Shown here in pieces: positions 27,645 to 43,362 of a DNA stretch of 61,964 bases; position 1 is the stretch's first letter, and the number at the start of each line of letters is the position of its first letter. The DNA lies in the NCBI GenBank assembly GCA_014879445.1, contig JACSSC010000021.1, forward strand, positions 1-61,964, written 5' to 3'. This DNA comes from Candidatus Competibacteraceae bacterium (lineage in GTDB: Bacteria > Bacteroidota > Bacteroidia > CAIKAF01). The notes below the pieces were generated by a model that was given only the letters and a program-made list of their open reading frames with translations, had not been told where the DNA came from and searched no databases. The position numbers and the translations under genes are program-made.

Positions 27645-29987
27645 ATGTGGCATAAATTTTCCCTTCTTATATTTCGCTATCGCCCCCTATGGCTTTTGCT
27701 CATTGCCTTATTAACAGGATTTATGGCTTGGAATTCGCGTGGGCTTGAAATGAGTTTCCAGATGGCTGAAGTATTACCCCATAGCGATCCTGCCCATCGC
27801 AATTATCAACATTTTCGATCAATATTCGGCGAAGAAGCCAATATGTTGATTATGGCTATTCAGGATAAAAATTTCTTTGCGCCAAATAAGCTCGAACATT
27901 TTCGATTCTTCGAACAGCGCATCAGTGCATTACCTGAAATCAGCTGGACATTATCGCCACTATCAGCTAGCGTTTTGCTCAAAAACAACGTAACTCAAAA
28001 ATTTGAAACGGCAGAACTATTCCCTCAAGAAAAAATCAATGATAGCTTAGCCCATGACTTAAAAAACAAAATCTCCCGTCTTCCCTTTTATGAAAACTGG
28101 CTTTGGCAATCTTCTTCGCATACTTATGTGCTCTATGCAAGCATGGATAAAGACATTGTGCACACACCAAAGCGTCTTGATGTGGTTAAGCAAGTACTTG
28201 TAATCATTAAAGAACATGAATCTGTTTCAGGGCAAACCGTTCACATCTCCGGTCTTCCTTTTATACGATCTGACAGCATTATCCGCGCTTCAAAAGAGAT
28301 CATCCTGTTTGTTATACTGGCTGCATTAATTGCATCTATTGTCCTCTTTGTTTTTTTTAGATCGTTTCGTGTTATTGCTGTAACTTTAGTCAATGTAGGA
28401 ATCAGTATTATTTGGTCGTCGGGCACAATTGGGCTTCTGGGCTATAAGATTTCAATTCTTACCGGCCTGATCCCACCATTGCTTATCGTTATTGGAATAC
28501 CAAATGCGGTATATATGATAACTCGTTACCATATAGAATTTACCCGAATTAGTCACAAAATCCGATCGCTGACTACCGTTGTTTCAAAGACCGGTAGAGC
28601 CATTTTTCTAACCAATCTTACAACTGCTATTGGGTTTGGCACAATGATTATTACAAACAGCAAGTTTTTGGTAGAATTCAGCATCGTTTCGTCGCTCAAC
28701 ATTATGTGTCTATTTTTCATCTCCATCATTCTTATACCTATTCTCTTCAGCTATATGCCAAGCCCAGGCAAAAGGCATATCAAGCATCTTCACCGCCCCC
28801 GAATTAATTTGTTTCTATCAATTCTCAGCATCATCGTGCAAAAGCACAAAGCCAAAGTATATGTTGCCGCTATTTGCTTTTTTGCCATAGCCACATATGG
28901 CATGAGCTTAATTAAAACATCTGGCAGAATAGCTGATGATGTTCCTGCACATTCGAAATCATTCCGTGATATTACATTTTTTGAATCCGTTTTCAATGGT
29001 GTTCTTCCTTTTGAAATAATGATTGATACAAAAAAAGACAAAGGCGCTTCTTTTACTAAAACAAAATTTTGGAAAAAAGTAAATGTATTACAAGATTCGT
29101 TGTCTCGATTTGGTAATTTCTCTCGACCCATTTCAGCCATTGAAATGGTTAAATATGCCAATCAAACCTTTTATAATGGGAGTCCAGAAGAATATCGCAT
29201 TCCAAATGAACTTGATATGTCAAGGATTGCCGCATACACATCAGGGGCAAGTGGTAATGACTCACTAATGAAAGGATACGTTGATGCAAAGCAACGTTAT
29301 ATTCGCATCCGAGCACAAATGGCAGATATGGGGACTTATGAAATGAAAGATTTATCAGATGAAGTAATGGGAATGATTTACGGCATTTTTGAAAAAGATG
29401 ATGTAGATGTTATGCTAACAGGTGCCAGTATGCTCATTATGAAGAGTACTGAATATTTGGTAAAGAATCTCTTCAGCAGTTTGCTGATTGCCGTATGTAT
29501 CATATCGCTCATTATGGGAGTCATGTTTCGATCTGCTAAGATGATTTTCATATCTATGATACCCAATATTATTCCACTACTTTTCACTGCCTCAATTATG
29601 GGATTTTTCGACATAGCACTTAAATCTTCAACAAGTATAATTTTTAGTATAGCGCTTGGCATTTCAGTTGATGACACCATTCATTATCTTGCAAAATACA
29701 GGCAAGAATTGAAACGATGGAATGGTGATGTAAAAAAAGCCGTTTTGAGTGCTTTACAAGAAACCGGCCTTAGCATGGCCTATACATCCATCATTTTATT
29801 TTTTGGGTTCTCCATCTTTATTGCATCCGACTTTGGAGGAACTGTAGCTCTTGGGCTACTCGTATCTATCACCCTATTTATAGCCATGTTCACCAACTTG
29901 ATTCTTCTCCCCTCATTGGTACTAACATTCAACAAGAAAAAAATATCTGAAAAAGAATTAGAGGATATTAGCCTTGATGAAGATTAA
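27645..29987 (+). CDS. RND/MMPL superfamily exporter
   Basis: A 780-residue inner-membrane protein with the duplicated RND layout: one TM helix near residues 12-30, a periplasmic loop to about 210, five or six TM helices, a second TM1 near 405-425, another periplasmic loop, and a final set of helices. Motifs include LTTAIGFGTMIITNSK in half one and ALGISVDDTIHYLAKYRQE in half two; the Asp pair of SVDDT fits proton relay in MMPL/patched-type transporters. The length suits hydrophobic-molecule exporters and not HAE1 drug pumps (over 1000). No membrane-fusion or TolC partner is adjacent. Substrate unknown; lipids or pigments are possible in Bacteroidota. Confidence 0.85.
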   Translation: MWHKFSLLIFRYRPLWLLLIALLTGFMAWNSRGLEMSFQMAEVLPHSDPAHRNYQHFRSIFGEEANMLIMAIQDKNFFAPNKLEHFRFFEQRISALPEISWTLSPLSASVLLKNNVTQKFETAELFPQEKINDSLAHDLKNKISRLPFYENWLWQSSSHTYVLYASMDKDIVHTPKRLDVVKQVLVIIKEHESVSGQTVHISGLPFIRSDSIIRASKEIILFVILAALIASIVLFVFFRSFRVIAVTLVNVGISIIWSSGTIGLLGYKISILTGLIPPLLIVIGIPNAVYMITRYHIEFTRISHKIRSLTTVVSKTGRAIFLTNLTTAIGFGTMIITNSKFLVEFSIVSSLNIMCLFFISIILIPILFSYMPSPGKRHIKHLHRPRINLFLSILSIIVQKHKAKVYVAAICFFAIATYGMSLIKTSGRIADDVPAHSKSFRDITFFESVFNGVLPFEIMIDTKKDKGASFTKTKFWKKVNVLQDSLSRFGNFSRPISAIEMVKYANQTFYNGSPEEYRIPNELDMSRIAAYTSGASGNDSLMKGYVDAKQRYIRIRAQMADMGTYEMKDLSDEVMGMIYGIFEKDDVDVMLTGASMLIMKSTEYLVKNLFSSLLIAVCIISLIMGVMFRSAKMIFISMIPNIIPLLFTASIMGFFDIALKSSTSIIFSIALGISVDDTIHYLAKYRQELKRWNGDVKKAVLSALQETGLSMAYTSIILFFGFSIFIASDFGGTVALGLLVSITLFIAMFTNLILLPSLVLTFNKKKISEKELEDISLDED

Positions 29988-30131: not shown

Positions 30132-31583
30132 ATGAAAACAAGAATTAAACTGATTGCTATTGTCTTTACTGCATGTTATTATCTAACTTCAACTAATATG
30201 CTTGCTCAATCGCTAATCTTTTCAGACGATTTTAATTCAAACGAGCATCAATGGGAAATGCGTGATGAATCACAATCTGTAAGCATTCAAAATAGTCAGC
30301 TTGTTTGTATAAACAAATCATCCGAGCCATTGCTATTTGAAAAAAAATTTGAATTTCATTCAGATCAGCCCTTTGAAATTGAATTTGGCTTAAGTGAAAT
30401 CAAAAAAGGCAGTTCTGCATTTTTATTATTCGGTTTTGTTGATGGCGATTATTTCAAAGCATTTCATTTTGACAACATTACAGTAATGCCTCGCTACTTC
30501 ATGAAAAACAAATGGGCTGATGCCGGTGTTTATGGAAAAAGTGTTTCTCAAACGCCAAAAAAATTAAAAGCTGTGCTTGAAGTCACTGATAATGGAAATT
30601 TTAAAAGTCAAAAAATTCATTATTATGTAAATGATCAACTCATAGGAACTGATATTTCGCCCAATATTCTTGCCAGCGCTAACTCTATCGTTTTTCAGAT
30701 AGAGCCAAATAGCGAAGTGTCATTTGATTATATACGCATCAAAGGAAATGCAATAGAAAAAGAAAAAAAGGCACAGTTTGTTATCAATTCATCAAAAATA
30801 AACCCTACTCATCCATTACCTACCGGACTAAACAATATTAAAGCCGGTTCTCCGATTTATGGAATGATTCAAACAGATAAACCCATAAGCCAAATAACCG
30901 GCCCATATGGTGTAAAATTTACAGAAAGAATCTATGCAGGAGAGAATGTTTTATCAGAATATAGCTGGGACTGCTCATACAATGACATAAAAGATATGAA
31001 TCAGTATTATGAAATTTCTATTTCACCTGATTTAAATAAAATTGAGTACCCAACTCAGGGATATGTGCTAAGCAAAGGACTTGCAGAATTATCAAAAGGG
31101 AAGCATAAAATAAAGATTAAGGTTTTATATCAAATCAACGGAAGCAGAGAAATGAATCTGTTAGGAGAAACCGAATTGGGATTCGACAATGCTGATGAAG
31201 CATCATATAATGCATACAAAAAAATGGTAAGTATATACCAATCGGCCTCATTAAAAAATGTAAAGCTGCCAACTGCCGGCATGAAAAACACAACACTAGA
31301 AAACGAAATACAGAAAGCAGTTGAAAAAGCATGGAAAAATCAGCAAGTAATGAAAATAATCATTATGGATACGGATTGGCAATACATGTATCACTCTGTA
31401 TGGGAAACGGTTACGGATCGCTATTTGAATGTAGCCGTGGTTGTCAAAGACCAAAACGGCAGTTGTATTATTTTCTATCCAGTAGCACTTCAGGGTAAGA
31501 TTGATTCCGGATATGAAACACAATTTCGATTAGGAGGCAATCATGCCATCGAAAAATATATTGATTGTGCCAATATAAAATAA
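30132..31583 (+). CDS. Exported protein with N-terminal LamG/DUF1080-like domain and unknown C-terminal domain
   Basis: A 483-residue exported protein with a signal peptide (about 1-25, ending NMLAQ). Residues about 28-210 form a beta-sandwich domain (SDDFNSNEHQWEM, QPFEIEFGLSE, AFLLFGFVDGDYFKAFHF, VSFDYIRIKG) resembling the truncated protein at the left edge. Residues 215-483 are unrecognised and contain a beta-rich part (GSPIYGMIQTDKPI) and a helical/mixed end (ENEIQKAVEKAWKNQQVMKI, then WETVTDRYLNVAVVVK). There is no T9SS sorting domain, so it is probably periplasmic or outer-membrane attached. Monocistronic, with a strong terminator. Function unknown. Confidence 0.65.
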   Translation: MKTRIKLIAIVFTACYYLTSTNMLAQSLIFSDDFNSNEHQWEMRDESQSVSIQNSQLVCINKSSEPLLFEKKFEFHSDQPFEIEFGLSEIKKGSSAFLLFGFVDGDYFKAFHFDNITVMPRYFMKNKWADAGVYGKSVSQTPKKLKAVLEVTDNGNFKSQKIHYYVNDQLIGTDISPNILASANSIVFQIEPNSEVSFDYIRIKGNAIEKEKKAQFVINSSKINPTHPLPTGLNNIKAGSPIYGMIQTDKPISQITGPYGVKFTERIYAGENVLSEYSWDCSYNDIKDMNQYYEISISPDLNKIEYPTQGYVLSKGLAELSKGKHKIKIKVLYQINGSREMNLLGETELGFDNADEASYNAYKKMVSIYQSASLKNVKLPTAGMKNTTLENEIQKAVEKAWKNQQVMKIIIMDTDWQYMYHSVWETVTDRYLNVAVVVKDQNGSCIIFYPVALQGKIDSGYETQFRLGGNHAIEKYIDCANIK

Positions 31584-31613: not shown

Positions 31614-31658
31614 AACACAATTCGCGTAATAGCCCTCTTTCGAATTGTGTTTTTTTTT
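31614..31658 (+). terminator. Rho-independent terminator
   Basis: An 11-bp perfect stem (AACACAATTCG / CGAATTGTGTT, 16-base loop) is followed by a run of T residues. It separates the lectin-fold gene from the HACL2-like operon. Confidence 0.88.
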
Positions 31659-31731
31659 GTTCATTTTCAGACGGCTGCATAATATTCAAGTATTATTGTG
31701 TTCTAGACACCCTTCATGTTGCTCAAAATTG

Positions 31732-31739
31732 TATTTTTG
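31732..31739 (+). promoter_or_regulatory. -7 box of HACL2-like operon
   Basis: TATTTTTG, a perfect TAnnTTTG, is 32 bases before the ATG at 31772, just past the preceding terminator. It would drive the three-gene operon to 35843. Confidence 0.65.
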
Positions 31740-31771
31740 ACAACATAGATTTCATTAGTATAATACATCAC

Positions 31772-33499
31772 ATGAACGGAGGAGAAATCATTTCGCAAAC
31801 ACTACAACGCCAAGGCGTGCGTTTTTTATTTACACTTTGTGGCGGACACGTGTCGCCAATTTTTGTAAGTGCTGAGAAAATGGGTATTCGTGTGATTGAT
31901 ACCCGACATGAAGCAACCGCTGTTTTTGCCGCCGATGCTGTTTCGCGGCTAACCGGCATACCCGGAGTGGCTGTTGTAACTGCCGGACCAGGGCTCACCA
32001 ATACTATTACGGCAGTTAAGAATGCACTACTTGCCCAATCACCTTTGATATTATTGGGTGGAGCAGCGGCTACAATGCTAAGAGGCAGAGGGGCACTGCA
32101 AGACATTAACCAAATGGAGTTGATGCGCCCCAGTGTAAAGTGGGCAACCAGTGTTAAACGGGTTAAAGATTTGGCGCCAACCATTGTTCAGGCATTTCGC
32201 ATGGCTCAAGAAGGCGTACCTGGGCCTGTCTTTGTTGAATGTCCGATTGATTTGCTTTATGATGAATCACTTGTTAAAGAATGGTATGGTATTAAATCAA
32301 AAGAAGTTCCGCCTAAAAACATACAGGATAAATTTCTTCAATGGTATCTGAATCGTCATGCCAATAAACTTTTTGCAGGTTCTGAACAGGTTATCATTCC
32401 TCAAGAAGCTGTAAAAGCTACTTACCCTTCTCACTCAACATCGGCGATAGAAAATGCCAAACGACGCATTAGAAAGGCAAAAAATCCATTAATGCTCATT
32501 GGAAGTGGCGCAATGATGACCCCTCAAAAAGCTGAAAAGTTAGCTAATGCCATAGAACAACTTGGCATTCCCGTATATTTAAGTGGAATGGCAAGAGGCC
32601 TACTCGGTAAAAATAATCGGCTTCAAATGCGGCACAATCGCAAGCAAGCTATTCGACAATCTGACCTGATTATTTTAGCCGGTGTTCCGAATGATTTTCG
32701 ATTAGATTATGGTAATCATATAGGGCATCGTACGTTTATCTCAATCAATCGCAGTCGTAAAGATCTCAATCTTAACAAGCGACCATCGCTTGCTATTCAT
32801 GCAGATCCAATGGATTTCCTGATTGAATTGGGATATTCTTCTTTCAATACAAATGAAGATTGGATAAAAATATTACATGAAAGTGATGCCAATCGAGAAT
32901 CATCCATCCAGGATCAGGCAAGCGAAGACGTTGGCCATATCAATCCTATACAACTCTTTAAAGAATTAGATCCCCTACTTAGTGATGCTACTATGCTGAT
33001 TGCTGATGGAGGCGATTTTGTGGCTACATCTGCCTATACTTTAAAGCCCCGCTCCCCTTTGTCGTGGCTTGATCCGGGTGTATTCGGAACGCTGGGTGTT
33101 GGCGCCGGTTTTGCCCTTGGCGCAAAACTTGTTTATCCAGAGAAAGATGTGTGGGTAATATTTGGTGATGGTAGTGCAGGATACAGCTTAATGGAATACG
33201 ATACGTTTGTAAGGCATAAACTACCTGTCATTTCACTGATTGGGAACGATGCATGCTGGTCACAAATTGCCCGCGATCAGGTTGAGTTACTAAAAAGTCA
33301 TTGCGCTACACGCCTTGCCTTTTCAGATTATCAAGAAATTGGTAAGGCATTTGGTGCTTCAGGTATTCGTATTAGCCAACAGCACGAGCTGGCTGTAGCT
33401 GTTAATGAAGCGATAAAACAAAGCAGGCAAGGCATCCCATTCATTTTAAATGCCATTATCGGAAAAACAGAATTTAGAAAAGGATCCATCTCCATGTAA
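31772..33499 (+). CDS. Thiamine-diphosphate enzyme, ILVBL/HACL2-like 2-hydroxyacyl-CoA lyase candidate
   Basis: A 575-residue ThDP-dependent enzyme with the three-domain acetohydroxyacid-synthase fold. The proton-relay Glu is E47 in [14 protein letters not shown]; the GDG...N ThDP/Mg motif is GDGS at 465-468 with N492 in IGNDACW. The patterns [42 protein letters not shown] and [13 protein letters not shown] resemble human ILVBL (HACL2) as I recall it, more than IlvB. HACL2 cleaves 2-hydroxyacyl-CoA to formyl-CoA and an aldehyde. No IlvN regulatory subunit is nearby. The gene lies 16 bases before an isochorismatase-fold hydrolase and is co-transcribed with an acyl-CoA synthetase, which supports a fatty-acyl substrate. 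A divergent acetolactate synthase or oxalyl-CoA decarboxylase relative remains possible. Confidence 0.75.
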
Positions 33500-33515
33500 A
33501 AATTAAATTATTGAT

Positions 33516-34067
33516 ATGAGCAATTCAGGTATTCCTATTCCCCAAACTACAGCCCTCCTTGTTATAGATGTTCAGGAAAAACTTATGCCTGTTGTACAAA
33601 ATCCTGATTTTGTCAAGCAACAGGTCAATCGTCTGATACAAGGTGCTTCTGTGTTGTCTCTGCCGATTATTGTTACAGAACAATATCCACAAGGATTAGG
33701 AGCAACATGTAGCGATATCGTTATCCCCGACAAAGATGCAGTTATTCAAAAAATGTGTTTTAGCTGTATGCAAAGTGAAGATGTGATAAAAAGAATAAAA
33801 AATCAAAAAATTACCGACATAATCATTGCAGGAGTTGAGTCGCATATATGTGTTCTAAAAACTGCTCTTGAAGCCATTGATGCAGGATACAGAGTACATA
33901 TTGTGGCTGATGCTGTTTCGTCTAGAACAAACATAAATAAAGAATTGGCTATTGAACGAATGCGTCAATCTGGTGCCTATATTGTAAGTACCGAAATGAT
34001 TTTATTCATGTTGATACAAGAAGCAGGTACCGATACATTCAGATCTATTAGCAAACTTATCAAGTAA
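33516..34067 (+). CDS. Isochorismatase-fold cysteine hydrolase (ISOC-like)
   Basis: A 183-residue single-domain protein of the isochorismatase/nicotinamidase fold. The catalytic triad can be read as D18 (LLVIDVQEKL), K79 (IQKMCFSC) and C112 (AGVESHICVLKTA); the VES segment before the Cys fits the usual cis-peptide position. The pattern is closest to YcaC/ISOC1-2 hydrolases of unknown substrate, not to pyrazinamidase. It is sandwiched between the HACL2-like lyase (16-base gap) and the acyl-CoA synthetase (6-base gap), so it probably acts in the same process. Specific reaction unknown. Confidence 0.85.
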   Translation: MSNSGIPIPQTTALLVIDVQEKLMPVVQNPDFVKQQVNRLIQGASVLSLPIIVTEQYPQGLGATCSDIVIPDKDAVIQKMCFSCMQSEDVIKRIKNQKITDIIIAGVESHICVLKTALEAIDAGYRVHIVADAVSSRTNINKELAIERMRQSGAYIVSTEMILFMLIQEAGTDTFRSISKLIK

Positions 34068-34073
34068 TATTGT

Positions 34074-35843
34074 ATGGAATCCACACGTTTGTTCGATTTG
34101 CTCGAAACGCATGTATCACATCGTCCTCATCAATCTTTTTTATCAGCCAAGGTCAATCAGCAATGGAAAAATTATTCTTTTGCACAAGTGCAGGATATGG
34201 CCAATCGGGTTAGCCATTACCTCCTTCATTTGGGATTGAAAAAAGAAGATAAAATAGCGATAATATCTAATAATTGCCCAGAGTGGAATTTTGTAGATCT
34301 TGGAGCTTTGCAAATTGGCCTGATAGATGTGCCAATGTATCCCAATATCTCTGAGAAAGATTATGATTTTATATTTCGAGATGCAGGTATTCAATATGCA
34401 TTTGTTGAGAATGAAGAGATTTTCAGCAACGTAAAACCATTATTGGGTAACGTGCCAACTCTTAAAGCTATTTACAGCTTTAAGGAGGTTGAAGGTATTA
34501 ATTCATTAGAAAAAATCCTCAATCTCGAACCAGATATGACTGCCATTGAAACTCATAAAGCAGATGTTAGCGGAAACGATATCGCAACTATCATATATAC
34601 ATCCGGCACAACCGGAAATCCTAAAGGAGTAATGCTTACACATGAAAATCTCCTTAGTAATGTATCAGGAGTAAAATCTGTCATTTCATTTGAAGCGGGT
34701 AAACGTACATTGAGTTTTCTGCCATTATGCCATAGTTTTGAAAGGATGGTTTTTTACACGTATTTATCATTTGGTATGCATATTCATTATGCCGAGAACT
34801 TGGATAGTATTGGCGAGAACCTAAAAGAGATAAAGCCATTTTGTTTTACAACCGTGCCTCGTTTGCTTGAAAAAGTGTATGAGAAGATTATGGCAAAAGG
34901 AGCAGAACTAAAAGGATTTAAGAAAAAAATTTTTGATTGGTCAATCACATTAGGATTGGCATATCAGGTTGGGAGAAATAAAAATATATTTTATCGCATT
35001 AAGTTATCCATTGCAAGAAAATTGGTTTTTTCGAAATGGCAGGAGGCACTGGGTGGCGAATTGAAATTTATAGTTACAGGCGCTGCAGCCATGCAACCAC
35101 GACTGATAACTTTATTTACAGCAGCAGGTATTCAAGTGATAGAAGGATACGGGCTTACAGAAACATCGCCCGTTTTAACAGTAAATCGGATGGAAGAACG
35201 ACTGCGTTGTATTGGAACGGTGGGTATGCCACTACCTGGAGTCGAAATCAAGATGGCTGAAGACGGAGAAATATTGGCCCGTGGCAAAAATGTGATGCGG
35301 GGATATTACAATCGCCCAGACCTAACTGCAGAAGTAATTGATAATGCAGGTTGGTTTTATACCGGAGATATTGGGAAGTGGGTGGAATGGAATGGTGAAA
35401 AATTTTTGCAGATAACGGATCGAAAAAAAGAGCTTTTCAAAACAGCCGGAGGTAAATACGTTGCCCCACAAGCGATTGAAAACAAGATGAAAGAAAGTCG
35501 CTTTATTGAGCAAATTGTTGTGGTTGGCGGTGATGATAAAAAATTTGTTTCGGCATTGATTGTGCCTTCATTTGTTTTATTGGAGGAATGGGCTAATAAC
35601 AATCAGCTTCAAATTTCTTCAACAAACGATCTGATTAACCATAATAAAACCTATCAATTGATACATGAAGAAATTGACAAACTAAATCACGATTTCGGGC
35701 ACTGGGAGCAAATTAAAAAATTTACAATATTGCAAGAAGAATGGTCGGTTGATAGTGGCGAACTCACACCCACGATGAAGCCAAAACGAAAAATCATTTA
35801 TACCCGCTATGCGAGTATTATTGAAAAGATGTATCGCGAATAA
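34074..35843 (+). CDS. Long-chain fatty acyl-CoA synthetase (AMP-forming)
   Basis: A 589-residue ANL-superfamily enzyme activating a carboxylic acid to acyl-CoA through an acyl-AMP. The P-loop is YTSGTTGNPKG at 175-185; FLPLCHSFERM, VIEGYGLTETSPV, GWFYTGDIG and TDRKKELFKTAGGKYVAP mark the A3-A8 motifs, in the bacterial FACL/FAA form. Length and motifs fit long-chain acyl-CoA ligases common in Bacteroidota. Third gene of the operon with the HACL2-like lyase, which would act on the CoA thioester of a 2-hydroxy acid. Its TAA directly abuts the TAA of the convergent gene (TAATTA). Confidence 0.9.
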   Translation: MESTRLFDLLETHVSHRPHQSFLSAKVNQQWKNYSFAQVQDMANRVSHYLLHLGLKKEDKIAIISNNCPEWNFVDLGALQIGLIDVPMYPNISEKDYDFIFRDAGIQYAFVENEEIFSNVKPLLGNVPTLKAIYSFKEVEGINSLEKILNLEPDMTAIETHKADVSGNDIATIIYTSGTTGNPKGVMLTHENLLSNVSGVKSVISFEAGKRTLSFLPLCHSFERMVFYTYLSFGMHIHYAENLDSIGENLKEIKPFCFTTVPRLLEKVYEKIMAKGAELKGFKKKIFDWSITLGLAYQVGRNKNIFYRIKLSIARKLVFSKWQEALGGELKFIVTGAAAMQPRLITLFTAAGIQVIEGYGLTETSPVLTVNRMEERLRCIGTVGMPLPGVEIKMAEDGEILARGKNVMRGYYNRPDLTAEVIDNAGWFYTGDIGKWVEWNGEKFLQITDRKKELFKTAGGKYVAPQAIENKMKESRFIEQIVVVGGDDKKFVSALIVPSFVLLEEWANNNQLQISSTNDLINHNKTYQLIHEEIDKLNHDFGHWEQIKKFTILQEEWSVDSGELTPTMKPKRKIIYTRYASIIEKMYRE

Positions 35844-36283: not shown

Positions 36284-37459
36284 TTAAATATGGTGTTGAC
36301 GGCTTTCGTTGAGGAACGGATGATTCTCAGCAAGTAGTTTCCTTTTGCTTAATGCAGAAAGAGTAACAAACAAGAAAAGACCTAAGAATCCAAGAACCAT
36401 GCCTACTTCAGTAAATCCGATATTCCATTTATCTTTCACCGCACCTGGCATAATCACCTGAAACAGGTCAAGATAATGCCCAACCAACAAGATGGCGCCA
36501 ACTATACTAAGCAACATTGGACTGCGCTTGGCATTTCGGTGCATAAGAATCAATAATGGGAAGAGGAAGTTTATAATCAGCATTGAAATAACAATGAGAC
36601 GATAATCGGTATTGAATCTTTCAAGGAAATAATTAATTTCTTCGGGGATATTGGAATACCATATCAACATGTACTGCGAAAACCAAAGATAAGTCCAAAA
36701 TATACTAAAAGCAAACATCAACTTTGCCAAATCGTGTATATGATTTTCATTTACCCATTGCATCAATCCTTGATTTTTAAGATGAAGCAGAATGAGCAAC
36801 ATCATAACAAGACCACTAACGAACAAGCCGGCAAAGATATACCAACCAAAAAGAGTAGAATACCAATGTACATCAATAGACATAAGCCAATCCCATGCGG
36901 ACATAGAAGAAGTAACAGCAAAAAACACAAGGAAAGCAGCACCAAATACAATACCTTTTTTGTGCATGCTCATTCCTTTTAAAGAATCTTCTTTCAATGA
37001 AATTTTACGGAATTGAATAGCAAGAAAAATCCATCCAGCAAGATAAACTATAGTTCGAACTAAAAAGAAAGTATTGGTGAGATACACTTTTTTTCCGCTG
37101 TTGAGATAAACGCTATCCGTTTCCTGAAAATGATGATCCATCCAATGCCAAATATCATGCACACCAAGCATACCTGTAACAACAAGAGCAAGAATAACAA
37201 TGCCTCCAAAAGGAAGATAAGTACTCATAGCTTCAGGAATTCGTTTTAACCCTGAATGCCATCCGGCCTCACCAACATAATTAACAGCAATAAAGAAAGT
37301 TGCTGCCAAAGCTATGGCTAAAAAGAAGAAGCCATTCAATAGAAGATTTGCCCAAACTCTATCTGGAGTCATAACAAATCCATAAACAATGGAGGCAAGT
37401 CCGATGCCCATGAGGGCTATGGTAAGCATTTTGGTTTTACCGGCAAACGTGTAGTTCAT
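36284..37459 (-). CDS. actF: Alternative complex III membrane subunit ActF
   Basis: A 391-residue polytopic inner-membrane protein with about ten TM helices, the last gene of the actABCDEF operon. It is a paralogous partner of ActC in the quinol:cytochrome c/oxygen oxidoreductase; ActF has no cofactor but may contribute to proton pathways. Typical segments are YVGEAGWHSGLKRIPEAMSTYLP, MSAWDWLMSIDVHWYSTLFG and FAFSIFWTYLWFSQYMLIWY, with conserved His and Trp residues. No cytochrome oxidase genes follow here; the operon ends about 100 bases before the small membrane protein gene. Confidence 0.93.
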   Translation of the reverse strand: MNYTFAGKTKMLTIALMGIGLASIVYGFVMTPDRVWANLLLNGFFFLAIALAATFFIAVNYVGEAGWHSGLKRIPEAMSTYLPFGGIVILALVVTGMLGVHDIWHWMDHHFQETDSVYLNSGKKVYLTNTFFLVRTIVYLAGWIFLAIQFRKISLKEDSLKGMSMHKKGIVFGAAFLVFFAVTSSMSAWDWLMSIDVHWYSTLFGWYIFAGLFVSGLVMMLLILLHLKNQGLMQWVNENHIHDLAKLMFAFSIFWTYLWFSQYMLIWYSNIPEEINYFLERFNTDYRLIVISMLIINFLFPLLILMHRNAKRSPMLLSIVGAILLVGHYLDLFQVIMPGAVKDKWNIGFTEVGMVLGFLGLFLFVTLSALSKRKLLAENHPFLNESRQHHI

Positions 37460-37518
37460 CGTATTCGTCTTTTCTGGTTAATTACCCTGATATTATTAAT
37501 TCAAATATTCTATCGTTA

Positions 37519-38118
37519 TTATTTGCGCTGAAGTTCTTGTACATACATCACTACCTGCCATCTTTCATATGCAGTAAGTTGAGAGCTATATGAGCCCATG
37601 TTTCCTTTTCCGTATTGGGTGGCATGAAAAATCTGCCCTTCTGTAATATCTTTCAATCTATCTGAATTAAAAGCAGGTGGCTGCAGCCCGTAGTTTTCTT
37701 TAGCAATCAAAACAGCAACAACAGAGCCATCCCCTTTTCCATCAGCACCATGACAAACAGCGCAATACACATTATACAATCTTTTACCCTCAAGTGTAGC
37801 AACATCTGATTTTTCTAAAGGATTTTTTAAAAAAGCAATTGCCGAATCTCTGCCCTGAGGTGTATTGGCATATGCATAAGGTAATGAGTTTATCATTTGT
37901 TCCCTATCAAAAGAATGAGCGATTGTTCCCTCAACAGGATTCTGGTTATTCAGCCCATTGGCAAAATTCGGATTGCTTTCTCCAGGTCTGTAAGCAGGCG
38001 AGCGATACATGTCGGGCATAAATTCAAAACCCGGGCTGTTTTTATCCTTATAGCAGGAAGTAAGCAGCAAACTCATTGCGGCTAATCCGATGACGATATT
38101 TCTATTGATTTTTTTCAT
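37519..38118 (-). CDS. actE: Alternative complex III monohaem lipoprotein ActE
   Basis: A 199-residue lipoprotein cytochrome c. The lipobox LLTSC places the acylated Cys at residue 22. A single haem-binding motif CAVCH is at 119-123 and a likely distal Met at 174 in KGNMGSYSS. It is a periplasm-facing electron carrier at the exit end of alternative complex III. Order and size match other Bacteroidota operons. It lies between actD (23 bases upstream) and actF (59 bases downstream). Confidence 0.93.
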   Translation of the reverse strand: MKKINRNIVIGLAAMSLLLTSCYKDKNSPGFEFMPDMYRSPAYRPGESNPNFANGLNNQNPVEGTIAHSFDREQMINSLPYAYANTPQGRDSAIAFLKNPLEKSDVATLEGKRLYNVYCAVCHGADGKGDGSVVAVLIAKENYGLQPPAFNSDRLKDITEGQIFHATQYGKGNMGSYSSQLTAYERWQVVMYVQELQRK

Positions 38119-38141
38119 TGCTATGCATCAATTCGGTTATC

Positions 38142-38684
38142 TTAATCTTTGTATTTGAGTTCAGCATCATTAATTTCTATGGCTTTGGTTTCTTTTACCA
38201 TCGCCTTAAGTTCGTCGGCAGAAACCTTATTATCATCAAGCACAATTTCCATCACAAATTTATCATCTGTAGCGCGTAAATCCGGGTTCATAGATTTGAA
38301 TCCAGGAAAAAGTCGAGAACGAAAAAGGAAAGTAAAGTTCATAAGATGAGCTGCGATAAGAACAGTAATTTCGAAAGTTACAGGTATAAATGCAGGCAAA
38401 TTCTGACTCAGCGAGAAGCTAGGTTTGCCACCAATATTCATAGCCCAATCCTGTACATTCATATACCACATCATTAGCAATGCTAACGAAACGCCCATCA
38501 CTCCGTAAAAGAAAGCTACAGTTGAAATCCGTGTTGGTTTTACGCCCAACGCCTTATCAATTCCGTGAATAGGGAAAGGCGAGTACACCTCTCTAATCTT
38601 CACACCTTTACTCATCAGGTGTTTGGCTCCGTATAATGTTTCATCCGGATCTTCAAAAACTGCCAAAATTGTTTTTTTACCCAT
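38142..38684 (-). CDS. actD: Alternative complex III subunit ActD (DUF3341)
   Basis: A 180-residue DUF3341 protein. The soluble N-terminal part (residues 1-50) contains FEDPDETLYGAKHLMSKGVKIREVYSPFPIHG, read here only in pieces: EDPDETLYGA and YSPFPIHG are the family signatures. Two TM helices follow at about 60-80 and 100-122, then an acidic cytoplasmic tail. ActD packs near ActC in the complex and may take part in proton movement. It is 36 bases downstream of actC. Confidence 0.93.
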   Translation of the reverse strand: MGKKTILAVFEDPDETLYGAKHLMSKGVKIREVYSPFPIHGIDKALGVKPTRISTVAFFYGVMGVSLALLMMWYMNVQDWAMNIGGKPSFSLSQNLPAFIPVTFEITVLIAAHLMNFTFLFRSRLFPGFKSMNPDLRATDDKFVMEIVLDDNKVSADELKAMVKETKAIEINDAELKYKD

Positions 38685-38720
38685 AGTTCTTATTCTAAAA
38701 AATTAATCTATGTAAGTGTA

Positions 38721-40133
38721 TTAATGATGATGCTCTGATTCTCCTACTTTTTCGTAAAGCTCTTCTGTTTTCTTTTTCCATCCATCGCCTGAAATCTTAA
38801 GAATAGATTTGGTTTCTGCAATGGCAATTACAGGGAACGCTCTCGAAAACAAAAGGAAGAGCGTAAAGAAAATGCCCAGTGTGCCAATAAAAATACCAAT
38901 GTCAACGAATGTTGGATAAAACATAGTCCATGATGATGGTAAAAAGTCGCGGTGTGTTGATGTTACGATAATCACAAAACGCTCAAACCACATTCCAATA
39001 TTTACTACGATAGAAAGCATGAAAGTTGCAACCAAGCTGCGACGAATTTTTCTCGACCAAAACAATTGCGGACTGATAACATTACAACTCATCATAATCC
39101 AGTATGCCCAAGCATACGGTCCGGTTGCTCTGTTAAGGAAAGCGTAGTGTTCGTATTGAACACCGGAATACCAAGCAATCACTAGCTCTGTGATATAGGC
39201 CACACCAACTATTGAACCCGTTACAACAATAATTTTGTTCATAGATTCGAGGTGGTTAATGGTAATATACTCTTCAAGATTTAATACTTTACGCATAATA
39301 ATGAGCAAAGTAGCTACCATCGCAAATCCTGAGAAGATGGCACCGGCAACGAAATATGGTGGGAAAATGGTGGTATGCCAACCCGGTACAATAGAAGTGG
39401 CAAAGTCCATGGATACGATAGTATGAACAGAAAGTACCAAAGGTGTTGATAATCCGGCTAAAACAAGAGAAACCTCTTCAAAACGCTGCCAAGTTTTTAC
39501 ATTTCCACTCCAACCAAAACTCAAAACACTGTATATTTTTTTCATGATGGGTTTAATCTGACGATCACGAACGGTAGCAAAGTCGGGAATTAAACCGATA
39601 TACCAAAATCCCAATGAAACAGAAAAATAAGTTGAAATCGCAAACAAGTCCCAAAGAAGTGGTGAGTTGAAATTCACCCAAAGCGAGCCCAACTGGTTGG
39701 GAACAGGGAAAAACCAATACACAACCCAAACACGGCCTACGTGAATAGCAGGGAACATGGCTGCACAAATTACGGCAAAGATTGTCATCGCTTCGGCAGA
39801 ACGGTTAATGGCCATTCTCCATTTCTGACGGAATAATAAAAGGATGGCAGAAATCAACGTACCGGCGTGACCAATACCGACCCACCATACAAAGTTGGTG
39901 ATATCCCAAGCCCAACCTACTGTCTTATTCAACCCCCAGACCCCGATACCTGTTCCGAATGTATAGGCAATCAGCCCAACTCCCCACAAGGCACAAATGG
40001 CTGCTACGGTAAACACAAGGTACCATAGCTTGTTAGCGCGCCCTTCAATCGGCTTGCAGATGTCTTCCGTAATTTGATGATAGGATTTATTTCCTAAAAT
40101 TAACGGTTCCCTTATTGGTGATTCTACGTTCAT
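38721..40133 (-). CDS. actC: Alternative complex III quinol-oxidising membrane subunit ActC (NrfD-like)
   Basis: A 470-residue NrfD/PsrC-type integral membrane protein with about ten TM helices. It forms the quinol-binding site next to the iron-sulphur arm of ActB. Recognisable segments are WAWDITNFVWWVGIGHAGT, RSAEAMTIFAVICAAMFP, HTIVSMDFATSIVPGWHTTI and WFERFVIIV. It ends in a cytoplasmic charged tail with EHHH. Size and order match the Rhodothermus/Flavobacterium complex. It follows actB after 34 bases. Confidence 0.95.
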   Translation of the reverse strand: MNVESPIREPLILGNKSYHQITEDICKPIEGRANKLWYLVFTVAAICALWGVGLIAYTFGTGIGVWGLNKTVGWAWDITNFVWWVGIGHAGTLISAILLLFRQKWRMAINRSAEAMTIFAVICAAMFPAIHVGRVWVVYWFFPVPNQLGSLWVNFNSPLLWDLFAISTYFSVSLGFWYIGLIPDFATVRDRQIKPIMKKIYSVLSFGWSGNVKTWQRFEEVSLVLAGLSTPLVLSVHTIVSMDFATSIVPGWHTTIFPPYFVAGAIFSGFAMVATLLIIMRKVLNLEEYITINHLESMNKIIVVTGSIVGVAYITELVIAWYSGVQYEHYAFLNRATGPYAWAYWIMMSCNVISPQLFWSRKIRRSLVATFMLSIVVNIGMWFERFVIIVTSTHRDFLPSSWTMFYPTFVDIGIFIGTLGIFFTLFLLFSRAFPVIAIAETKSILKISGDGWKKKTEELYEKVGESEHHH

Positions 40134-40167
40134 ATTGCTTTACGGCTAATGTTTTACAATTTGCTGA

Positions 40168-43100
40168 TTAATGTTTGTCTGTATGTGCTTCGTCATGACC
40201 GGCATTTGATGCTTCATCATGTCCATAGATTTCTTCCACATTTCGCACTTTCGTTTGATAGATGACATTGGGCTTAATCCCAACTTCTTCAAGCAGATGA
40301 TATGCACGTCCATCTTTTTCGAGTTTGGCAATACGACTCTCAGAATCATTATAATCGCCAAACACAATGGCTTGCGTTGGACAAGCAGAAGAACAAGCTG
40401 TTTGAATTTCCTGATCTTTAACCATACGGCCTTCTTTTTTGGCATCAAGCTTACCGGCCTGAATCCGTTGTACGCACATGGAGCATTTTTCCATCACCCC
40501 ACGGTCGCGAACTGTAACATCAGGATTTAATACCATCTTGCCCAACTCGTCATTCATATAATAATCAAACTTGCTGTTGTTGTTATATTGGAACCAGTTG
40601 AAACGACGAACTTTATAAGGGCAGTTGTTGGCACAATAGCGAGTACCCACACAACGGTTATAGGTCATCTGATTAAGCCCTTCCGAACTGTGTGTAGTAG
40701 CAACCACCGGACAAACCGTTTCGCAAGGCGCATGATTACAGTGCTGACACATTACCGGCTGGAACACCACCTTAGGTTGTTTAGATGGAATTTCTTTGCT
40801 GCGATAATTATCGTTTGTTTTGTCATAACGCGTAGAGGGATCGGCATCAGATGTATAGTATCTGTCAATACGCATCCAATGCATATCTCGTGAACGTCGA
40901 ACTTCATCCTTGCCCACAACAGGTACGTTGTTCTCAATATGGCAAGCCACTACACAAGACCCACAACCGTTACACGCATTCAAATCAATTGAAAGACCCC
41001 AGCGGTGGTTTGGCATAGAGAACTCTTTCCAATAATCAATCTTGCTAACAGGAGCTTCATGTCCGCCATCCGTCAATGCATACACATTGGTATGCAAAGT
41101 TTTAGCAGGATTACCTGAACGAGCATTATCGTTATATTCCTTAAGTGAAGTTTCTTTTACAATATCACGTCCCATCATGGTATGGTGGGTTTGTGTTCCG
41201 GCAAGTTGATATTTTTTACCGGCATTTTCAACCGTTGCTCCTACAGCCCATGTCATCAACAATCCGTTAAGATATGAAACCATAGGATAGGCGTTTACAC
41301 CAATCAAATCATCCTTACGGCCAAACTTTCTACCATAGCCCAATGCAATACCAATGGTACCGGGCATTTGACCTGGTTGAGCCAAAACAGGCAATTCAAT
41401 GGATTTTCCGTTAACATTCACTTTCGCTACATGAGCCCATTGTCTTTGACCCATTAGTTTGTTAAACTTAAATTCGGGCTTATCCATATCTTCAGGCGAC
41501 ATGGTAATATAGTTATCCCAAGTTACACGGGTAATAGGATCTGGTAATTCATGAAGAATGGGATTAGTAGCATAAATGCCTGTACCCATGCCCACCTTTT
41601 GATAAAATACCACTTCCCATGATGAGGATTCAGAAGCAAGTTTAACGAGTGCCGCTGCCGCATCTGCCAATCCTGAAGCCGGCATTGGATCAGTAGCCGC
41701 AACGAAGGGTGCTATACCATTAGATATAGGTTGAGTTGAAGTATAAACGCCATCATGCAAACTCAAATTCCAAAACTCATCAAAAAGAAGTTTTCCTGAA
41801 CCGGCGAAAAGAGTAGTACTCCAAAATTTTTTGATATAATCGCGATACACGCTACTGTTTTTATCAGTACGCGTAGCTTTACCTGCCCACACCAATAAAG
41901 ATTCTTGAGCCGAACGGGTATCAAACAACGGATGAATAGTAGGTTGTTGTAAGCTATAATGCCCTTTTACCGGCTGATAATCATTCCAAGATTCAAGATA
42001 ATGGTGATCCGGACAAAGATATTTAACATTCGATTCTTCAACTCTATCAGCAAAAGAAACAGAAAAAGCCGCTTTTGAAAGCGCCTCATTGAAAGCATCA
42101 CCGGTAGGAAGCGTATATGCAGGATTTACACCATACAAAATCACTCCATTACCTGCCAAATCAGCTACTGCATCCATCATTGCTTTATCATCGCCCTGAT
42201 ATAGATGAACCGGAGTATCCATATCTATAGTATGACCATAGCTACCAAGTAATTGATTGATTTCATTGACAACCATTTGTGCATTGACATCATTAAGACC
42301 ACATACAACCAATGCATGAGATTTATTTTCCCAAAGATAATCTCCACATGCATGAATGCCTTCCTCAACAGATGTTGTGGCATTGGCTAAAGTTGTCATA
42401 TTTGCTTTAGCGGCAAGGTAGTTATAGAGAGAAACCAAAGCAGCACCGATTTCCGACTGCTTCACCATATAACGATAATCAGCATTAGCACCTGCCAACG
42501 ACATGACAGATTCAAACTGAAAATGACGCGACATGTCTTTATGTTCAGGCCTACGTGTAGTTGCGTACTGCTTTTGATAAGTTCCACTCATCAACCAATC
42601 ATTCATAAAATCACAACCAAAAGCAGCAATGGCTTTTGCTTTGTCAAAATGATATGAAGGAATGACTGCCTTGCCAAAAGTTGCTTGATTGGCCTGGCGA
42701 ATGCTTGCATAAGATACGGCATCATATTGAATATGAGTAACATTCCCAAATGCCATTTTAAACTCGCCAATGACAGCTTGCGTGGAAGGACTGATAACAG
42801 ATTGAGTGATTAAATAGGTTTTCTTTCCACCATCAGCCAACTCTTTCAGTTTTGCAATGATATCAGCATCTGCCTGACTCCAATCATAAGGAGCTCCCTC
42901 TTTTAAAGGGGTTTTGGCACGTTTGTTATCATATAAAGAAAGAACAGAGGCCTGAGCACGGGCGTTGGTTGCACCACCGGTTACTACCGACAAAGCATTT
43001 CCATCCACTTTGATAGGTCGCCCTTCACGGGTTTTCACCATGATACTGAAATAGTCAGCACCGTCATAAAAGCTCGAAGCATAATAATTGGCTACACCAG

Positions 43101-43362
43101 GTGTAATCGCATCCGGCTTAATAACATACGGGATGGCCTTTTTAATAGGTGTTTCGCAGGCCGCTAAAGTAGCGGCTGTTACGCCAAAACCTAGAAACTT
43201 CAAAAAGTCCCTGCGATTGGTATGCGTTGCAGCTACCTTATCATCTGCCAACATCTGCTCGATGGGTAGTTGCTCAGCAAACTCATTATCTCTGTTGTGA
43301 ATGAACTGTGGATCGTTCTCCAGTTCTTCGTAACCTTTCCAGTATACTTTATTCTTACTCAT
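40168..43362 (-). CDS. actB: Alternative complex III iron-sulphur subunit ActB (fusion of molybdopterin-like and ferredoxin parts)
   Basis: A 1064-residue periplasmic protein joining a CISM molybdopterin-oxidoreductase-like domain, which in this family has lost the metal cofactor, to a four-cluster ferredoxin domain. A twin-arginine motif RRDFLK (residues 50-55) precedes a hydrophobic stretch ending LAAC with Cys 69, so it is probably Tat-exported and lipid-anchored. The C-terminal Cys groups are CNGCGSCVVAC, CQHCNHAPCETVCP, RCVGTRYCANNCP and CSMC...CSSACPTQ (about residues 795-995). It passes electrons from quinol at ActC to the haems of ActA/E. A tatC gene is 13 kb away in this window. Confidence 0.95.
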   Translation of the reverse strand: MSKNKVYWKGYEELENDPQFIHNRDNEFAEQLPIEQMLADDKVAATHTNRRDFLKFLGFGVTAATLAACETPIKKAIPYVIKPDAITPGVANYYASSFYDGADYFSIMVKTREGRPIKVDGNALSVVTGGATNARAQASVLSLYDNKRAKTPLKEGAPYDWSQADADIIAKLKELADGGKKTYLITQSVISPSTQAVIGEFKMAFGNVTHIQYDAVSYASIRQANQATFGKAVIPSYHFDKAKAIAAFGCDFMNDWLMSGTYQKQYATTRRPEHKDMSRHFQFESVMSLAGANADYRYMVKQSEIGAALVSLYNYLAAKANMTTLANATTSVEEGIHACGDYLWENKSHALVVCGLNDVNAQMVVNEINQLLGSYGHTIDMDTPVHLYQGDDKAMMDAVADLAGNGVILYGVNPAYTLPTGDAFNEALSKAAFSVSFADRVEESNVKYLCPDHHYLESWNDYQPVKGHYSLQQPTIHPLFDTRSAQESLLVWAGKATRTDKNSSVYRDYIKKFWSTTLFAGSGKLLFDEFWNLSLHDGVYTSTQPISNGIAPFVAATDPMPASGLADAAAALVKLASESSSWEVVFYQKVGMGTGIYATNPILHELPDPITRVTWDNYITMSPEDMDKPEFKFNKLMGQRQWAHVAKVNVNGKSIELPVLAQPGQMPGTIGIALGYGRKFGRKDDLIGVNAYPMVSYLNGLLMTWAVGATVENAGKKYQLAGTQTHHTMMGRDIVKETSLKEYNDNARSGNPAKTLHTNVYALTDGGHEAPVSKIDYWKEFSMPNHRWGLSIDLNACNGCGSCVVACHIENNVPVVGKDEVRRSRDMHWMRIDRYYTSDADPSTRYDKTNDNYRSKEIPSKQPKVVFQPVMCQHCNHAPCETVCPVVATTHSSEGLNQMTYNRCVGTRYCANNCPYKVRRFNWFQYNNNSKFDYYMNDELGKMVLNPDVTVRDRGVMEKCSMCVQRIQAGKLDAKKEGRMVKDQEIQTACSSACPTQAIVFGDYNDSESRIAKLEKDGRAYHLLEEVGIKPNVIYQTKVRNVEEIYGHDEASNAGHDEAHTDKH

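Follow-up and report, generated by a model that had tools for sequence, protein, structure and literature searches.

What three tightly packed bacterial genes accomplish together is the question raised by a 61,964-nucleotide stretch of DNA from Candidatus Competibacteraceae bacterium (assembly GCA_014879445.1, contig JACSSC010000021.1, positions 1-61,964, forward strand; hereafter "the window", meaning this whole stretch). These genes encode a thiamine diphosphate (ThDP) enzyme, an ISOC-type hydrolase and an acyl-CoA ligase, and a first-pass annotation of this DNA had read them as a candidate alpha-oxidation operon. Our analyses point to a bacterial module of the HACL2 type (i.e., resembling human 2-hydroxyacyl-CoA lyase HACL2), predicted to shorten 2-hydroxy acids by one carbon; we assign this reading a probability of roughly 0.68. 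It builds on computed gene order, the families of the three proteins, the monophyly of the ThDP enzyme (hereafter "the lyase") with HACL2, its catalytic residues, the co-inheritance of the genes and the absence of branched-chain synthesis.

Phylogenetic position and active site of the ThDP enzyme

The lyase carries the full Pfam TPP N, M and C domains and the ThDP-binding signature, i.e., the activating residue E47 and the motif G465-D466-G467 (GDG), which are invariant. Its NCBIfam scores were all well under the cut-offs of the models for acetolactate synthase (ALS; TIGR00118, 243 bits against a cut-off of 538), oxalyl-CoA decarboxylase (OXC; TIGR03254, 194 against 739) and actinobacterial HACL (AcHACL; NF058623, 303.8 against 600), placing it outside all three families as these models define them. 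AcHACL was the best solved relative by sequence. Human HACL2 (ILVBL), in a working copy of its sequence, matched the lyase over its full length with 48% identity; residues I554, E557 and Q161 stand at their published places in this working copy (PMC8760513, PMC13327070). Plasmid-borne relatives of other kinds showed approx. 22-31% identity in full-length matches.

Phylogenetic analysis placed the window lyase, human HACL2 and 21 bacterial orthologues in one clade (support 100/100), and the AcHACL-type, Streptomyces-type, OXC and ALS sequences all fell outside it. This tree was calculated without long-branch sequences (MenD and others), which had disturbed a quick version. The motifs from which the first-pass annotation had judged that the enzyme follows HACL2 and not IlvB are present, and the phylogeny that it had called for agrees with that judgement, as the lyase does not fall inside the IlvB acetolactate synthases. 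The orthologues in the HACL2 clade come from Bacteroidota, Acidobacteriota, Pseudomonadota, Myxococcota, Planctomycetota, Calditrichota and other contigs.

Three residues of AcHACL (H44, T88 and Q128) keep in place a water that is bound to the 2-hydroxyl, and Q128 also binds the carbonyl of the substrate (PMC8760513). Residues H26, T70 and Q110 of the lyase align with H44, T88 and Q128, respectively, and are invariant in 28 sequences; position 26 is occupied by Ala in E. coli ALS and by Pro in OXC. The proposed catalytic acid of HACL2, E557, corresponds to D502 in the lyase and to Asp in the other Bacteroidota clade members examined, and this position is Glu in most orthologues from other phyla. 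The alignment thus suggests that a carboxylate is kept at the E557 position of the active-site helix in kind only (Asp for Glu). In the structural model of the lyase (predicted local distance difference test, pLDDT, 86.9), the active-site helix spans residues 495-506 and carries D502. The C-terminus of the lyase is short, with no large lid. A short C-terminus has been tied to long-chain substrates, and a large lid limits AcHACL to short chains (PMC8760513). Structural comparison of the model ranked HACL/HACS enzymes first (Z 39.9-40.7), followed by OXC (approx. 39) and ALS (approx. 37); as ALS lies only approx. 3 Z units below HACL/HACS, the fold alone does not decide function, and the modelled ranking is consistent with, but not decisive for, an HACL identity.

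One could also suppose that the enzyme is an acetolactate- or acetoin-type carboligase acting on pyruvate, in an operon for overflow or diacetyl metabolism. The best, sub-threshold NCBIfam match of the lyase is PRK05858, a model named acetolactate synthase, and mouse ILVBL has been reported in dimethylglyoxal formation from pyruvate (PMC11237006). However, the lyase lies outside the ALS clade, has His and not Ala at position 26, and is accompanied in its operon by an acyl-CoA ligase and a hydrolase rather than by a regulatory subunit or an acetolactate decarboxylase. Moreover, PRK05858 is the family of the mycobacterial protein P66947. This protein has itself been called a putative HACL (PMC13327070). 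The genome also has no ketol-acid reductoisomerase (IlvC), and overall we consider the carboligase reading very unlikely.

IlvC (TIGR00465) was not found over the cut-off in any genome of the window's order, and it was found in 14 of 14 control genomes. No further IlvB-like enzyme was found in the genome, where the sole other TPP_enzyme_N match over the cut-off looks like MenD. As the genome holds neither another IlvB-like enzyme nor IlvC, branched-chain synthesis is excluded; an acetolactate synthase for branched-chain amino acids was ruled out by the absent IlvC together with the position of the lyase outside the ALS clade. The order-wide lack of IlvC is of separate interest, as the usual route to branched-chain amino acids seems unavailable to the whole order.

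Operon partners and conservation of the gene set

The product of the middle gene matched PF00857 (Isochorismatase) with 118 bits. Its D18-K79-C112 triad, already pointed out in the first-pass annotation, is exact and does not vary among 25 aligned relatives. The nearest solved relatives (8rkz, 8rl0 and 2b34; eukaryotic) are 34-40% identical, and the top matches of the structural model (pLDDT 95.9) were eukaryotic ISOC/MAR1 proteins, with amidases and isochorismatases coming next. The hydrolase is a member of the ISOC1/ISOC2 (MAR1) family and is nearest to the eukaryotic ISOC/MAR1 proteins.

The third gene had been proposed to encode an acyl-CoA ligase, and its product indeed shows an AMP-binding domain with a C-terminal domain (PF00501, 262 bits; PF23562, 33 bits); its best NCBIfam match was the mycobacterial-type FadD11 (321 bits, under the model cut-off). 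Ligases of the operon type form their own paralogue clade apart from the housekeeping ligase (Shimodaira-Hasegawa-like approximate likelihood ratio test, 100). A ligase approx. 50-53% identical was found in each of the 16 genomes of the order; the two lyase carriers have the operon type in addition, and within the order the operon-type ligase is present only alongside the operon. This dedicated clade and its restriction to operon carriers indicate that the ligase is dedicated to the operon and not a chance neighbour.

In a set of 56 loci taken from named genomes, the ISOC gene came after the lyase gene in 13, and ISOC plus ligase did so in 8, all of them Bacteroidota by title. Across 396 Bacteroidia genomes, the lyase was found in 9, ISOC (at least 49% identity) in 9 and both in 7; this co-occurrence was significant by genome (P = 4 × 10-12; Fisher's exact test) and by genus (P = 1 × 10-6), deeper kinship being ignored. 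One genus included three genomes (G018, G096, G124) with both lyase and ISOC but at unlinked places, and six loci (L072, L076, L077, L078, L116, L117) showed ISOC followed by an operon-type ligase, with the lyase elsewhere or not found. Lyase and ligase without ISOC occurred at one locus (L074, with a broken ligase frame). Every pairing among the three genes recurs. In the window's own genus, two genomes had lyase and ISOC and two had neither. Overall, the gene set is conserved beyond chance and recurs across Bacteroidota, and the neighbourhood comparison that the first-pass annotation had recommended hence finds the three genes together or co-occurring in related genomes.

It is extremely improbable, given these patterns, that the three genes are chance neighbours with no common pathway. 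The ligase family is a general one, of which every genome of the order has a member, but the pairings recur in several families, co-occurrence extends to unlinked genes and the ligase clade is a dedicated one.

Among lyase carriers that are not Bacteroidota, ISOC was absent or only 24-41% identical. At three gammaproteobacterial loci (L027, L035, L040), the gene immediately preceding the lyase encodes a FadX-like CoA transferase, which would offer an alternative way to an acyl-CoA. One of these loci (L027:4286-9317) also has, downstream, a cholesterol-oxidase-like oxidoreductase of the glucose-methanol-choline (GMC) type. A different conserved stretch, encoding a protein of approx. 380 amino acids without a Pfam match and one of approx. 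430 amino acids, lies 3' of the lyase in L039, L041 and L043-L047.

Proposed pathway, substrate and competing readings

Substrate, reaction direction and the part played by ISOC are inferred. The ligase would activate a 2-hydroxy fatty acid, probably a long-chain one, to its CoA thioester. The lyase would then attack the thioester carbonyl and break the C1-C2 bond, giving formyl-CoA and an aldehyde that has lost one carbon. This aldehyde would be oxidized by a general aldehyde dehydrogenase from elsewhere in the genome, which encodes five such enzymes. The ISOC-type cysteine hydrolase would work in the same pathway and, as a low-confidence first guess, might hydrolyse formyl-CoA to formate and CoA.

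The lyase might instead act on a short, branched or sterol-derived 2-hydroxyacyl-CoA, or in the condensing direction. Enzymes of the AcHACL type work on C4-C5 substrates (PMC8760513), the reactions of HACLs can run in both directions (PMC11271303), and a cholesterol-oxidase-like gene stands beside one gammaproteobacterial orthologue, as mentioned above. Conversely, the lyase lacks the C-terminal lid to which the short-chain preference of AcHACL is ascribed, the ligase resembles long-chain ligases, and human HACL2 takes straight-chain substrates, cleaving straight-chain 2-hydroxyacyl-CoAs in yeast and Chinese hamster ovary cells (PMC6151664). We regard these substrates or this direction as unlikely.

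Several findings weigh against the one-carbon-shortening module as predicted here. The co-occurrence statistic is based on few independent lineages, ISOC-ligase pairs are found in two genomes in which no lyase was found (G062, G079), and orthologues from beyond Bacteroidota lack the ISOC and ligase partners or have others. In the active site, the acid E493 of AcHACL is replaced by I499 (I554 in human HACL2), and the proposed substitute, D502, is an Asp, which AcHACL also carries in that column. The human HACL2 sequence used was a working and not a database copy; without it, the tree would still give a bacterial clade distinct from ALS, but not the name HACL2. The dimethylglyoxal link of mouse ILVBL (PMC11237006) makes a carboligase side activity possible. 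Finally, the P450, PhyH and FA_hydroxylase families were sought in the genome and none was found.

As these three families are missing, a substrate produced by their enzymes is unlikely and import or salvage fits better; the 2-hydroxy acid is probably salvaged, and a hydroxylase of another, unrecognised kind in the genome is possible. Full alpha-oxidation with an endogenous hydroxylase of these families was accordingly rejected. Of the alpha-oxidation operon originally proposed, the HACL2-type lyase, the conserved gene set and the dedicated ligase stand, the link to Bacteroidota sphingolipids is putative, and a complete route from an unhydroxylated fatty acid by way of these hydroxylases is not supported. 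As a separate observation, FA_hydroxylase (PF04116) has no copy in the order's only two operon carriers (G000, G002), against 3-9 copies in the remaining 14 genomes.

Salvage could also take a different order of steps, in which the hydrolase acts first and frees the 2-hydroxy acid from an N-acyl (amide) precursor, followed by the ligase and then the lyase. The same fold includes amidases (nicotinamidase, biuret hydrolase and RutB), ISOC-ligase pairs occur apart from the lyase, and a genome with no known 2-hydroxylase is likely to draw on a salvaged substrate. The characterised substrates of the ISOC fold are small, however, and we think such an order rather unlikely.

Locus layout and relation to known systems

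All three open reading frames lie on the plus strand, separated by 16 (lyase/ISOC) and 6 (ISOC/ligase) bases, as the first-pass annotation had it (Table 1). The terminator that it had placed before the operon is a hairpin with a fold energy of -10.7 kcal/mol (z = -3.88; 0 of 200 shuffles equally stable). Its single promoter fared less well: a sequence before the lyase gene matches the sigma-70-like consensus at 12 of 12 positions, but its TATAAT half is gone in the sister species (L004), and the match is probably misleading as a promoter. TTGTATTTTTGAC, on the other hand, is common to the window and L004, approx. 40 bases before the ATG and at the same distance in both; it contains the box TAnnTTTG, the Bacteroidota promoter consensus.

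Table 1. Coordinates of the operon genes and upstream elements in the window
Feature	Position	Strand	Basis
HACL2-type ThDP 2-hydroxyacyl-CoA lyase (predicted), 575 aa	31772..33499	+	Pfam TPP N/M/C, tree, active-site residues, model
ISOC1/ISOC2-type cysteine hydrolase, 183 aa, triad D18-K79-C112	33516..34067	+	PF00857, solved relatives, invariant triad
Dedicated acyl-CoA ligase, FadD11/FadD15 type, 589 aa	34074..35843	+	PF00501, PF23562, own clade
Intrinsic-terminator-like hairpin, 11-bp stem then T run, closing the upstream unit	31614..31659	+	Fold energy against shuffles
TTGTATTTTTGAC, a probable promoter element that includes a TAnnTTTG box of the Bacteroidota type (TATTTTTG at 31732-31739)	31728..31741	+	Kept in L004; function inferred
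TTGACA-16-TATAAT, sigma-70-like, probably not a real promoter	31737..31764	+	12/12 consensus match; second hexamer missing in L004

Upstream of the operon, the window encodes an MMPL/HAE3-type transporter (27645-29987, plus strand), possibly a lipid exporter of the genus, which is also directly upstream in the sister species, and, between this gene and the operon, a 483-amino-acid protein without Pfam or NCBIfam match (30132-31583, plus strand). Both were rejected as operon members, as the 483-amino-acid gene is not there in the sister genome and the adjacency of the MMPL gene is seen in this genus only. The minus strand at 36284-43362 carries NrfD and 4Fe-4S domain genes and a c-type cytochrome-like protein, which look like part of an alternative complex III. 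Elsewhere, a plasmid of Streptomyces fungicidicus (L082:759-7641) carries a member of a separate HACL-like group beside formyl-CoA transferase, aldehyde dehydrogenase, sucCD and acetate-CoA ligase; this cluster looks like another formyl-CoA pathway.

No paper describing an HACL2-ISOC-ligase operon was found in the open-licence literature searched, and we know of no earlier genetic link between the ISOC1/ISOC2 family and HACL chemistry. HACL2 is an enzyme known from animals, and the HACLs studied from bacteria in the literature cited here belong to other groups; as HACL2 from humans and several HACLs from bacteria have already been described, the lyase represents a new branch of a known kind, and the new element is its association with ISOC and a dedicated ligase. 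Spread across many bacterial phyla and, in Bacteroidota, coupled to a dedicated ligase and an ISOC hydrolase, the HACL2 clade suggests that bacteria have a physiological route for 2-hydroxy acids, and it offers soluble enzymes for one-carbon chemistry.

It is tempting, although doubtful, to go further and regard ISOC1/ISOC2 hydrolases as the missing enzyme (e.g., a formyl-CoA hydrolase) of a dedicated bacterial HACL2-ISOC-ligase module. Human ISOC1 is peroxisomal and of unknown function (PMC3583843), and HACL1-type alpha-oxidation is likewise peroxisomal (PMC6151664), so that the bacterial link suggests a testable function for ISOC1; if true, this orphan human protein would gain a function in alpha-oxidation. 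A search of the open-licence literature for the 8RKZ paper, the function of ISOC1/2 and the substrate of eukaryotic members found none. The link of ISOC to 2-hydroxy acid chemistry is open to direct tests, both in bacteria and in human peroxisomes.

Compared to human HACL2 (ILVBL, UniProt A1L0T0), the window lyase is alike in clade and in its short C-terminus, and the two have in common Ile at the position of AcHACL E493, Gln at that of Q128 and an acidic residue one helix turn after the former. The window lyase differs in lacking the N-terminal membrane segment (the human protein is approx. 50 residues longer N-terminally), in having Asp502 for human Glu557 and in the placement of its gene in an operon with ISOC and ligase. 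Compared to AcHACL (PDB 7pt1-7pt4), the His, Thr and Gln substrate contacts are conserved, whereas AcHACL belongs to a separate clade and differs by its Glu493 and by the large lid that goes with its C4-C5 substrates. Among solved folds, HACL1-type HACL/HACS (RuHACL, 6xn8; ApbHACS, 8vzb) and OXC come nearest (Z approx. 40 and 39, respectively) but are only approx. 25% identical to the lyase, and OXC has Pro and Glu at the positions of His26 and Gln110. The hydrolase has the D-K-C triad in common with ISOC1/ISOC2 (MAR1), although it is bacterial and operon-bound, and the ligase, for which the mycobacterial-type long-chain ligase FadD11 is the best profile match, belongs to an operon-type clade of its own.

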